From Halobacteriovorax sp. GB3 (GTDB taxonomy: Bacteria > Bdellovibrionota > Bacteriovoracia > Bacteriovoracales > Bacteriovoracaceae), in contig NZ_JAQSLN010000001.1 in NCBI RefSeq assembly GCF_028649655.1, positions 806,001 through 870,000 of the forward strand: a stretch of 64,000 nt of DNA, in the 5' to 3' direction. The position numbers and the translations under genes are program-made. Below the pieces are notes generated by a model. The model was not told where the DNA came from, ran no database searches, and saw only the letters and a program-made list of their open reading frames with translations. Positions 44,273-58,443 of the stretch are shown here, in pieces; position 1 is the first letter of the stretch, and the number at the start of each line of letters is the position of its first letter.

Positions 44273-44295
44273 AAAAAGTGGCCCTTTCGGACCAC
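44273..44295 (-). terminator. Terminator of the 53-residue gene, GAAA tetraloop
   Basis: On the minus strand GTGGTCC pairs with GGGCCAC across a GAAA tetraloop (44295-44278), followed by CTTTTT-like Ts (44277-44273). It lies 68 nt after the small gene's stop. Confidence 0.72.
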
Positions 44296-44363
44296 CCTTA
44301 AAGAGATTGCGAAAACTGAAAAAGAGAAGAATAGGGAATTTACTACTAGGTAGGATCTAGCCC

Positions 44364-44525
44364 CTAACTGTTTTTATTTTTTAAATAGCGTCGAAGTGTT
44401 TCAACTAAAAGCTCATCACTGTCTAAGTCCTCGTTGATTGTTCTTAAAGACTTTCTTTGCTCATCCATGAGCTTTTCCAATTCACTTAACTCTGCGAGTA
44501 GTTCAAGGCAATTTCTAATGATCAT
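44364..44525 (-). CDS. Small acidic helical protein (53 residues), monocistronic
   Basis: The ATG at 44525 is preceded by GGAG with a 7-nt spacer, and the frame runs 53 codons to TAG at 44364-44366. The peptide is predicted to be one or two helices with heptad leucines (LELLAELSELEKLMDEQ, DELLVETLRRYLKN), acidic in the middle, with one Cys at residue 6. There is no signal peptide. A sigma-70-type promoter, an FNR-type palindrome and a terminator frame it exactly, which makes a real gene likely although the frame is short. Function unknown. A binding or anti-regulator protein is possible. Confidence 0.7.
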   Translation of the reverse strand: MIIRNCLELLAELSELEKLMDEQRKSLRTINEDLDSDELLVETLRRYLKNKNS

Positions 44526-44564
44526 GAGTATACTCCATGCGACTCATGTTTAACTCTTGAAACT

Positions 44565-44593
44565 AGTGTATGGTCTATCAAACAACTTGTCAA
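44565..44593 (-). promoter_or_regulatory. Sigma-70 promoter of the 53-residue gene
   Basis: On the minus strand the perfect -35 TTGACA (44593-44588), a 17-nt spacer and TACACT (44570-44565). Transcription should start near 44558, about 33 nt before the ATG. Confidence 0.72.
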
Positions 44594-44595
44594 CA

Positions 44596-44609
44596 CTGAT
44601 TTAAATCAG
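44596..44609 (-). promoter_or_regulatory. FNR/CRP-type palindrome upstream of the 53-residue gene
   Basis: CTGATTTAAATCAG is a perfect 14-bp palindrome that fits TGAT-N4-ATCA, the core of the FNR box TTGAT-N4-ATCAA. Its centre is about 44 bp upstream of the inferred transcription start, near the -41.5 position of class II activators. Confidence 0.45.
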
Positions 44610-44612
44610 GAC

Positions 44613-44642
44613 AAAAAAAAGGCCCTTGATCGGGCCTTTTTT
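44613..44642. terminator. Bidirectional terminator after the suf operon
   Basis: GGCCC (44621-44625) and GGGCC (44632-44636) are flanked by A8 on one side and T6 on the other. On the minus strand it follows the nfu stop codon directly and ends the SUF operon. Confidence 0.88.
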
Positions 44643-45207
44643 AAAAATCTGGTGCAATGTAAACATCAATTCCGGGGTCATATTCATCTCGAAGGATGCC
44701 TTTGATCGCCTCAAGTGTCCCAGTCGTTGAGCTAGGGCATGTTCCACAGGCCCCTTGGTATTTCACAAGCAGAATATTATCTTCGAGGCTCAAGGCCATG
44801 ATATCTCCACCGTCGGCCTGAAGCCCTGGGCGAATGGTTTTATCGAGGATCTCCTCAATTTTTAAAAGTTCTGGTGAGAGTGATCTTCTTCTCTCCGCTT
44901 CTGGATCCGGGTCAAAGTATTCAGGGTTGTGAGCTGGAAGGGCCTCGTTGAGCGCTCCTTCTATCTTTGGCATCATTTCATCCCATACTTCGTATCCAAA
45001 TTTTGAAAGTGTGATCGTATTTTCAAAAAAGTGAAGCTGATCAACTCCGCGAATAGTAAACAATTCTAGAGCAAGTTTATTTTCTCCACATTCCATTGGT
45101 GTACGGTATGTTGAGTTTCCTTCTTTTTTTACAGCACGATCGAGGATAAGCTTGATCGCATTTGGGTTTGGTGTTGGTTGTACGTGAAAATTAATGTCTT
45201 CACTCAT
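44641..45207 (-). CDS. Nfu-type iron-sulfur carrier (Nfu_N + NifU C-terminal domain)
   Basis: This 188-residue protein carries and delivers Fe-S clusters to target apoproteins. It has an N-terminal Nfu_N scaffold domain (QPTPNPNAIKLIL) and a C-terminal NifU-like domain with IRPGLQADGGDI and the cluster-binding CGTCP motif. This two-domain form is known from alpha-proteobacteria and mitochondria. It is the last gene of the Rrf2-suf operon, 15 nt after sufS. Confidence 0.93.
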   Translation of the reverse strand: MSEDINFHVQPTPNPNAIKLILDRAVKKEGNSTYRTPMECGENKLALELFTIRGVDQLHFFENTITLSKFGYEVWDEMMPKIEGALNEALPAHNPEYFDPDPEAERRRSLSPELLKIEEILDKTIRPGLQADGGDIMALSLEDNILLVKYQGACGTCPSSTTGTLEAIKGILRDEYDPGIDVYIAPDF

Positions 45208-48498: not shown

Positions 48499-49932
48499 TT
48501 ATCCAATTGAGTTTTCTAATTTCATTTCAATAAGTTTGACCGCTTCAACAGAGAATTCGAGTGGAAGTTCTTTGAAAACATCCGAGCAAAATCCGTTAAC
48601 GATCATTGAGATACACTTTTCCATATCAAGTCCACGAGACTGAAGATAGAAAAGTTGCTCTTCACTTATCTTCGCTGTGGAGGCCTCGTGCTCTACAGTT
48701 GCTGTATTATTTTTTACATCGATATAAGGAAAAGTATTGGCCGAGCACTTATCTCCAACGAGCATTGAATCACACTGAGAGTAGTTTCTAGCTCCTGTTG
48801 CAGAAGGCATAACCTTAACAAGACCACGGTAGTTATTTTCACTTTCCTCTGCTGAGATTCCCTTTGAGATGATTGTTGATTTGGTATTCTTCCCAATGTG
48901 AATCATCTTGGTACCAGTGTCAGCTTGCATTTTATTATTAGTGAGAGCGACAGAGTAGAAGGCACCTTGTGAGTTATCGCCAATAAGGTTACAGCTTGGG
49001 TATTTCCAAGTAATGGCCGATCCAGCTTCAACTTGAGTCCATGAGATTTTAGAGTTCACACCAAGGCAATTACCACGCTTTGTAACAAAGTTGTAAATTC
49101 CACCTTTTCCTTCTCTGTCACCGGCATACCAGTTTTGAACAGTAGAATAGCGTACTTCTGAATTATCAAGGGCTACAATTTCAACAATGGCCGCGTGTAG
49201 TTGATTTTCGTCTCTTTGTGGAGCTGTACATCCTTCGAGATAGTTTACGAAAGAGCCTTTGTCGGCAACAATAAGTGTTCTTTCAAACTGTCCTGTCTCT
49301 TTTGCATTAATTCTAAAATAGGTAGATAGGTCCATTGGACAAGTTACACCTTCAGGAATGTAGACAAAAGATCCATCAGAGAAAACAGCAGCGTTTAGGG
49401 CCGCATAAAAGTTATCAGCGTAAGGAACAACTGTTCCTAGATATTTTTTTACAAGTTCTGGATACTCTTTTACCGCTTCTGAGATTGAGCAAAAGATAAC
49501 TCCAACTTTTTCAAGATCTTCTTTGTAAGTCGTTGCAACAGAAACAGAGTCAAAGACAGCATCGACAGCAACACCTGTAATTCTCTTTTGTTCAGTGAGA
49601 GGAATTCCAAGCTTTTCAAATGTCGCAAGAAGTTCTGGATCAATTTCATCAAGACTCTTTGGAGCATCTTCTTTTCTCTTTGGAGCCGCGTAGTAGTAGA
49701 GGGCCTGAAAATCAATTTCAGGAATATCAAGTTTCGCCCAGTTTGGAGCTTTCATTTTTAGCCAATGACGAAATGCTTTTAGACGGTATTCAAGAAGCCA
49801 TTCTGGCTCTTCCTTTTTCTGTGAAAGAAGGCGAATGATGTCCTCGTTTAGACCTTTTGGAAACTCTTCAGTTTCAATGTCAGTATAAAAGCCATACTTG
49901 TATTCACTGGCCGTTAAATCTTCTGTACTCAT
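48499..49932 (-). CDS. sufB: SufB, Fe-S scaffold subunit
   Basis: This 477-residue protein is the scaffold on which the cluster is built. It has the N-terminal [17 protein letters not shown], the central [15 protein letters not shown], the beta-helix core [15 protein letters not shown] and the C-terminal [21 protein letters not shown] that contains the conserved acidic/His site (each quoted in part). Its ATG overlaps the stop of the Rrf2 gene by 4 nt (ATGA), so translation is coupled to the regulator. Confidence 0.97.
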
Positions 49933-50381
49933 ACATTTATCTCACTTTGATTGATCATTTGTTCTAAAATTTGTGGTTCGTCTAAAAGAAGTTCTTTAAG
50001 AGTTAACTCTTCTAGATAACCATTTACCTTTTCATAGAGCTTTTGCATTGGAGCAGAGATATTGCAGGTTCCAAGAAACTCGCAAAGTCCACTTTTTGAT
50101 TGGCAAATACTCTGTGATTCCTTTCCTTCGATCATGCGAACAAGGTCCATGAATGTAACGGTCTCAAGGTCTTTGTTAAGTGAGTAGCCACCTTTAATAC
50201 CTTTAACTGAAGTTAAAATTTCATTGGAATTCATCGTTTGCATCACTTTGGCAGTGGTATCGAAAGGCGTATGAAATTTGTCACAAATCTCTCTGGCAGA
50301 TGTTAATTTGCCATCTTCTCTTGTCGCTATAAATTTTAACGCCATTAGGGCGTATTCTATTTTCTTATTAACCTTAAGCAT
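49929..50381 (-). CDS. Rrf2-family Fe-S regulator of the suf operon
   Basis: This 150-residue winged-helix regulator has the Rrf2 start [15 protein letters not shown], a recognition helix region [12 protein letters not shown] and wing GIKGGYSL. Three Cys (Cys93, Cys100, Cys106) have nearly the spacing of the IscR cluster ligands, so it probably holds an Fe-S cluster and senses cluster status. I start it at ATG 50381; GTG 50393 is an alternative. As the first gene of the suf operon it most likely controls its own promoter. The symbol (iscR or sufR) is left open. Confidence 0.93.
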
Positions 50382-50442
50382 CTTGGCCACCAAGCTTCAT
50401 AGGATCTTTAAAATTTTCAAATGTTTAGACCCGTATACCTTG

Positions 50443-57030: not shown

Positions 57031-58350
57031 TTACCACGGACGATAGAATGTTGGCTTTTTCTGAGTGAGTGATTTTTCTAAAAATTCTAATAAATCACTT
57101 TTTTCTTCTGGAGTTAAAAAGAGCGGAGGCCAGACGAATTCATCGAGGTTCTCAAACATAGAGATGACTTCCTCTCTTACAAAAACTCTCTCAATATCAC
57201 CTTGATAGCTATAGCGAAATTTTCGGTTAATATTACTTGTCGAGTAATGCATGAATGAGTGGCGAACATGATCATAGTGATCGATAACTTCACTTAAGTA
57301 GACAAAGGCACCATTGTGCATATAGGGAGCTGTTAGAGCAACGTTACGAAGGGCCGGAACTTTAAATTTGAATTTGTCCTCTTGGCTCTTTGTGACATAG
57401 TAGCGGCCATAGTCTTGTTTATTGGCGCTCTTTCCTGGTCCAATAGGTGGGATGGCAATATTTTTAAATTCAAAATTTGATAGGTGAGGACCATTGTGGC
57501 ACTCTGCACATCGAGCTCTCTCACTAAAAATAATTGCCCCACGTTTTTGTTTGTCGCTAAGAGCACTTTTTTGTCCACGTAGATAACGATCCCATGGTGT
57601 GTCGTTAATGACAAAGGCATGTTTTTCAAAAGCATAGATCGCTTCGGCAACATGACCAATATTGATTTCTTCAACTTTTGTATCAGGAAAGGCCTTTTCA
57701 AACATTTTTTGGTAGAAACTTGCACTTGGTCCATAGAGAAGTCTTTCCACTAGGGCCTGCCATTTTTGCTCATCTGTTTTGAGATCGGCTATAGGGTTAG
57801 AGCCAGGCTTTCCAAGCATTTCTTCATGGGAGAGAATTGGAAAGAGGGCCTGTGCTGAGTTGGCGTGTGTGAGGGCCATTTTAATTTTATTTTCTATTGG
57901 ATCTTTTCCACTGATATTCGCATTCGGCGTTTCGAAGAAGTCTTCACTTTCATTGTAAGAGACTCTACCATCCCAAAACATGAAGGCCTGTTCGTCAAAA
58001 CCAACATTGAAAAGATGGGGAGCATTTCGTGGAAGAATTTCTCCATCAGATTTTACGCGAACTTTTCCATTGAAAGTAAGTCCAACACCAAGGGAGAGTG
58101 GAAGGCCATCACCTAGTCCCTCACTTACCGCGTGGCAAGTGGCGCAGTTGATATTGTGATTTCCTGAAAGGGCATTTTCAAAAAAGAGTGCTGCTCCAAG
58201 TTTCACTTCCCCCTCTGTTGATTCAGCTGGATCACCTAGGGCCTGATAATTAAATTTCTCAATATAATTTTGAAGTTCAAGATCGAGGTCGCTGGCCTGG
58301 ATGTTTAGAGAGATGAGAGAAAAGAAAACTAAAAGAAATGAACCGTTCAT
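57031..58350 (-). CDS. Di-heme cytochrome c peroxidase / MauG family
   Basis: This 439-residue periplasmic protein has a signal peptide (cleavage near LNIQA, 19) and two c-type haem sites, CATCH (Cys69-His73) and CAECH (Cys281-His285). PRNAPHLFNVGF and ALRNVALTAPYMHNGAF are family signatures (quoted in part). Members reduce H2O2 with electrons from small cytochromes or, as MauG, make protein cofactors. No cytochrome partner gene lies next to it. It is 93 nt downstream of argS and its leader holds a 15-bp inverted repeat. Confidence 0.92.
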   Translation of the reverse strand: MNGSFLLVFFSLISLNIQASDLDLELQNYIEKFNYQALGDPAESTEGEVKLGAALFFENALSGNHNINCATCHAVSEGLGDGLPLSLGVGLTFNGKVRVKSDGEILPRNAPHLFNVGFDEQAFMFWDGRVSYNESEDFFETPNANISGKDPIENKIKMALTHANSAQALFPILSHEEMLGKPGSNPIADLKTDEQKWQALVERLLYGPSASFYQKMFEKAFPDTKVEEINIGHVAEAIYAFEKHAFVINDTPWDRYLRGQKSALSDKQKRGAIIFSERARCAECHNGPHLSNFEFKNIAIPPIGPGKSANKQDYGRYYVTKSQEDKFKFKVPALRNVALTAPYMHNGAFVYLSEVIDHYDHVRHSFMHYSTSNINRKFRYSYQGDIERVFVREEVISMFENLDEFVWPPLFLTPEEKSDLLEFLEKSLTQKKPTFYRPW

Positions 58351-58407: not shown

Positions 58408-58443
58408 ATAATTAAGTTGGTTTGAAGTGTCAAACTATTGTTG

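Follow-up and report, generated by a model that had tools for sequence, protein, structure and literature searches.

Comparison across relatives assigned a short minus-strand gene in the window, the 64,000-nucleotide stretch of DNA that was analysed and to which all coordinates refer, to a candidate iron-starvation regulon of Bacteriovorax-type predators. We estimate a probability of about three in four that this gene encodes a small, usually single-copy, alpha-helical protein of that regulon, repressed by a DtxR-family regulator. According to the proposed mechanism, when Fe2+ is sufficient the repressor would occupy the operator GTTTGRYATRYCAAAC across the -35 or -10 hexamer and block transcription, and when iron is scarce it would leave the box and the small protein would be made.

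The small gene and its conserved box

The 53-codon ORF MIIRNCLELLAELSELEKLMDEQRKSLRTINEDLDSDELLVETLRRYLKNKNS lies at 44364-44525 (-) and starts with ATG, 7 nt behind a Shine-Dalgarno GGAG (44533-44536, -), as an earlier note on this DNA had described. The promoter proposed there was also located, at 44593-44565, and consists of the -35 hexamer TTGACA (44588-44593, -), a 17-nt spacer and the -10 hexamer TACACT (44565-44570, -). It agrees with the consensus at 10 of 12 positions and was the top of five hits in 2 kb, while shuffled sequence gave 3.2. The GAAA-loop terminator is present as a hairpin of 11 pairs followed by a U tail (44274-44299, -; z = -3.5). A hairpin around the start codon in the 5'UTR (z = -1.3) was rejected as an element, with no matching repeat apparent in the sister genome G001.

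A protein search recovered a copy with 62% identity in G001 (Bacteriovorax sp. BSW11_IV record), together with more distant ones. The family profile, built from nine members and searched against 129 genomes of the bacterial family, returned homologs in 68 genomes at E<=0.05 and at 58 places at E<=1.1e-4, typically as one short ORF per genome and mostly starting with M[IV]I. Searched with the single sequence, 22 genomes of other families yielded weak hits only, and no relatives were found in annotated plasmids. Codon changes among the homologs gathered at third positions, and dN/dS was 0.02-0.21 in all 16 computable pairs (for L062/L063, dN 0.03 and dS 1.33); in three pairs, G000/G001 included, synonymous sites were saturated and dN/dS was not computable. 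Because homologs occur in about 60 of the 129 genomes and bear the signature of purifying selection, we regard the ORF as a real protein gene on comparative grounds. The idea of a genuine, self-contained regulated small gene is thereby borne out, including the coding check named in the earlier note, in which synonymous changes proved to be favoured. No Pfam/NCBIfam family scored above cut-off for the protein; the scattered matches were weak, the best far below cut-off, with no MntS model among them. FbpA/FbpB/FbpC or any other named family was accordingly rejected as its identity, and the protein is treated as a member of an unnamed family.

The earlier note overlooked a conserved element, GTTTGATAGACCATAC, at 44568-44583 (-), which covers part of the promoter spacer, overlaps the -10 hexamer and matches at 14 of 16 positions the sequence GTTTGRYATRYCAAAC that the upstream regions of homologs have in common. 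Among 62 distinct homologs, picked by protein similarity and independently of the box, 61 had a match of at least 13/16 within 120 nt upstream, placed 10-54 nt before the start codon, and 26 of these were perfect; the controls gave 0/62 for downstream regions and 0.5/62 for shuffled sequence. The box of G001, GTTTGATATGCCATAC, matches at 15 of 16 positions. In 27 of the 62 homologs the best -35 begins two bases inside the box, and placement over the -35 or over the spacer and -10 would both fit a repressor blocking RNA polymerase. We therefore infer that the box is an operator, and propose a DtxR-type iron box. This genome contains 274 sites with at most two mismatches to GTTTGAN4TCAAAC; the box of the window gene, with its two mismatches (14/16), would not stand out without the orthologs.

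Proximity to the suf operon, which the earlier note had pointed out, is true in the window, where the upstream neighbour (44641-45207, -) is the last gene of the suf cluster and encodes a 188-aa protein with a NifU-type C-terminal domain. The small gene adjoins the last suf gene in just 16 of the homologous loci examined, and the remainder lie elsewhere, among them about 15 between another conserved neighbour pair, 5 beside hemF and 5 beside a TauE-like gene (neighbour names assigned by eye, NifU excepted). Since the same gene with its box was found in at least four different neighbourhoods, the two, judged by these arrangements, stay coupled whatever their location, suf being just one of several settings. 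Linkage to suf was rejected as a functional clue, as it holds for 16 loci only.

Box-bearing genes and the candidate regulator

Pattern searches detected the strict box in 84 of the 129 genomes and 31 of 48 genera, and the reversed-pattern control gave single hits in 2 genomes only. Box-bearing genes confirmed by Pfam/NCBIfam encode FeoA (five cases), TonB receptors (three), a BFD ferredoxin, a class II fumarase scoring above the NCBIfam cut-off, ChaN-like proteins of the haem-binding type (two), CCP_MauG proteins (four), solute-binding proteins (two) and a glutamyl-tRNA reductase. Feo, TonB, Bfd and FumC are established content of iron-starvation regulons. Because feoA, TonB, bfd and class II fumarase genes share the box, the gene set has, by its annotations, the make-up of an iron-starvation regulon. 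The window itself holds a second box with perfect half-sites, GTTTGAAGTGTCAAAC (58420-58435), upstream of a MauG-like di-haem cytochrome c peroxidase gene (57031-58350, -), a pairing that recurs in other genera.

Several further gene types were observed repeatedly behind the box, including secreted proteins of ~160-170 aa (L195/L037 1565-2059, L036 1556-2038, L152) and, in several genera, a large secreted, weakly TolB-like protein (L031, L134, L154, L156, L163, L174). In L035, around 1479-1530, a longer inverted repeat, CTTCCTTT...AAAGGAAG, encloses the box ahead of a gene for a secreted protein.

A DtxR-family match (PF01325) was present in 79 of the 84 box-bearing genomes, and four of the five genomes without one are at most 84% complete; genomes without a listed match were counted as negative in these tallies, which are sensitive to how complete each assembly is. 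A Fur-family hit (PF01475) was missing in 31 of the 84. The sole Fur-family gene of this genome sits with znuC/znuB-like ABC-transporter genes and its product is therefore probably Zur. Fur was rejected as the box binder on both counts.

The form of the box, TTTGRN4YCAAA, has the same 5-4-5 layout as the IdeR/DtxR site, which has been redefined as TTAGGN4CCTAA (PMC8464063), and differs from it in the third base, where T replaces A. A second, island-borne dtxR of this genome (dtxR2) has GTTAGGCATACCTAAC just upstream of itself, an intermediate that appears to bridge the box form found here and the IdeR/DtxR form. A near-identical island occurs in three genera (L218, at G000:C4:329500-336500; L224; L227) and looks like a recent horizontal transfer; it contains the second DtxR gene with its GTTAGGCATACCTAAC box, a 647-aa permease-like gene (FTR1-like by eye) and a 281-aa gene.

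For the near-universal DtxR1 (G000:C4:105777 type), the candidate binder, the metal positions are His20, Cys113, Glu116 and His117, which its orthologs keep; the C-x-x-E-H motif is conserved across the aligned orthologs and the recognition helix is nearly invariant. The metal site consists of Met10, Cys102, Glu105 and His106 in DtxR, and of Asp8, Glu99, Glu102 and His103 in MntR (PMC4805248). The C-x-x-E-H of DtxR1 matches Cys102/Glu105/His106 of the DtxR iron site; its Cys takes the place of Glu99 of MntR, and its His20 that of Met10 in DtxR and Asp8 in MntR. The Cys points to iron, though PgMntR (Asp19/Cys108/Glu111/His112) binds Mn(II), so that a Cys at this place is also compatible with manganese. 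Binding of DtxR1 to the box with iron as the signal is, on these comparisons, a well supported inference.

Alternative regulators, signals and products

The earlier note had taken the palindrome CTGATTTAAATCAG (44596-44609) for an FNR box, by which an FNR/CRP-family activator bound just upstream of the -35 would turn the gene on at low oxygen. The palindrome exists, its TGATN4ATCA core has an activator-like position and suf adjoins the gene; it is nevertheless unremarkable, being one of five perfect 14-bp palindromes in the 38% GC window, and its two outer positions deviate from the FNR consensus, TTGATN4ATCAA. Neither G001, at the corresponding place, nor G003 has it, so that the gene is kept in relatives while CTGATTTAAATCAG is lost, the outcome named beforehand as speaking against the proposal. 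An FNR-type core precedes only 4 of the 62 homologs, the window gene included, and the search for matching boxes gave 8 window sites within one mismatch of TTGATN4ATCAA against 7.3 expected, which is chance level. Control by FNR, oxygen or redox state through CTGATTTAAATCAG was rejected on these grounds and we consider it very improbable; comparison across relatives turned an FNR reading that is plausible for a single genome into an iron reading.

The transcript might mainly, or also, act as a regulatory RNA, with a pyrimidine-rich 3'UTR segment of the suf clade pairing with mRNAs of iron-using proteins. The segment TCAGTTTTCGCAATCTC (44303-44319, -), just before the terminator, is identical in G001, and five genomes of another genus have a shorter core. 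Directly in front of the terminator, seven suf-linked genomes from two genera (G000, G001, G003, G091-G094) keep a pyrimidine run followed by an TCAGTTTT-like core, while the flanks diverge; in G003 a complement of the core lies 27 nt before the start of a cytochrome c gene. That complementarity is not kept in the close relatives G092 and G093, and pairing with the cytochrome c leader, seen in G003 only, was rejected. Moreover, the segment was not seen outside the suf-linked clade whereas the ORF was, selection acts on the protein, and the window gave no Rfam family match at gathering cut-offs, which together make an RNA role improbable. Besides the window, the loci of the suf-linked clade with this core in the 3'UTR are L059, L062-L064, L069 and L082; an RNA function of the core is possible.

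The box could also be an iron or metal operator read by another regulator, such as a divergent Fur-family, Rrf2/RirA-like or unrelated repressor. DtxR1 has no box in front of its own gene and hence no autoregulatory site, Fur-family proteins are present in 80 of the 129 genomes, and an Rrf2-like regulator (by eye; 49929-50393, -) heads the suf operon in the window. No box with at most one mismatch was found beside that Rrf2-like gene. The lack of Fur-family hits in part of the box-bearing genomes, the IdeR/DtxR geometry of the box with its intermediate form at dtxR2, and the nearly invariant recognition helix of DtxR1 all speak against another binder, and we judge it unlikely. A little less likely still is that manganese or several divalent metals are the signal, with the regulator an MntR and the small protein a counterpart of MntS, itself an MntR-repressed small protein (PMC4361602). 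DtxR1 is MntR-sized, lacks the SH3 extension and has its highest-scoring matches among MntR models and structures; yet the box precedes iron genes, namely feoA and those for TonB receptors, Bfd and class II fumarase, and in the metal site a DtxR-type Cys replaces Glu99 of MntR and His replaces its Asp8.

The protein and comparison with known systems

M1, L10 and E17 are nearly invariant in the homolog alignment and fall in what would be an amphipathic helix at the N-terminus, its hydrophobic residues recurring every 3-4 positions. AlphaFold2 with the single sequence predicted one helix over residues 2-52 (pLDDT 96.5), which is weak evidence since lone helices are easily predicted, and a fold search with this model gave no matches. 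A Pro near the middle is found in several homologs, and a two-helix fold is therefore also possible. Cys6, considered as a conserved redox or metal ligand, was rejected because many homologs have Ser or other residues there. The conserved N-terminal helix may self-associate or bind a partner protein. As a small helical protein for metal shortage whose gene stands apart from uptake operons, it resembles MntS and FbpB most in role, and by that analogy the likeliest action is that of an adaptor or inhibitor in an iron-sparing or iron-uptake response; this proposal is tentative and the least certain step of the reading.

No study of iron control in this predatory lineage was found in the open-access literature, and the subject appears to be undescribed so far. 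We lean slightly towards the view that the gene represents a new family of small proteins made in iron starvation, at the core of a Fur-independent, DtxR-run regulon in Bacteriovorax-type predators, in which the mRNA of the suf clade may additionally carry a 3'UTR regulatory RNA. The box gives easy access to the regulon as a whole. The small protein gene is the one most consistently tied to it, so the protein probably matters when iron is short, and it is perhaps used outside or inside prey.

Among known systems, MntS of E. coli, a 42-aa protein repressed by MntR and proposed to block the exporter MntP (PMC4361602), is similar in having a stand-alone small-protein gene, repression by a metalloregulator of the DtxR family (MntR) and production when the metal is scarce. 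The metal there is manganese, whereas iron is proposed here, and the two are likened by role, not by sequence. FbpA, FbpB and FbpC of Bacillus subtilis are Fur-regulated, basic proteins thought to assist the sRNA FsrA (PMC7430163); they resemble the present protein in their size of ~50 aa (FbpB, 48 aa), their production under iron starvation and their place in an iron-sparing response (PMC7430163), and differ from it in that the gene described here has a DtxR-type box and encodes an acidic protein without a Pfam/NCBIfam match. The IdeR/DtxR regulons of Actinobacteria share a DtxR-family repressor, the 5-4-5 half-site layout and iron-gene targets (PMC8464063). In the Gram-negative predators, by contrast, T takes the place of A as the third half-site base, and the candidate regulator, short and of MntR size, carries His at the position of Met10. 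Delta-proteobacterial Fur regulons likewise place feoAB and porin-like genes behind a lineage-specific palindrome (PMC545781), but their box, WTGAAAATNATTTTCAW, is read by Fur (PMC545781), whereas the box described here differs from it and Fur is often missing from the genomes that carry it.
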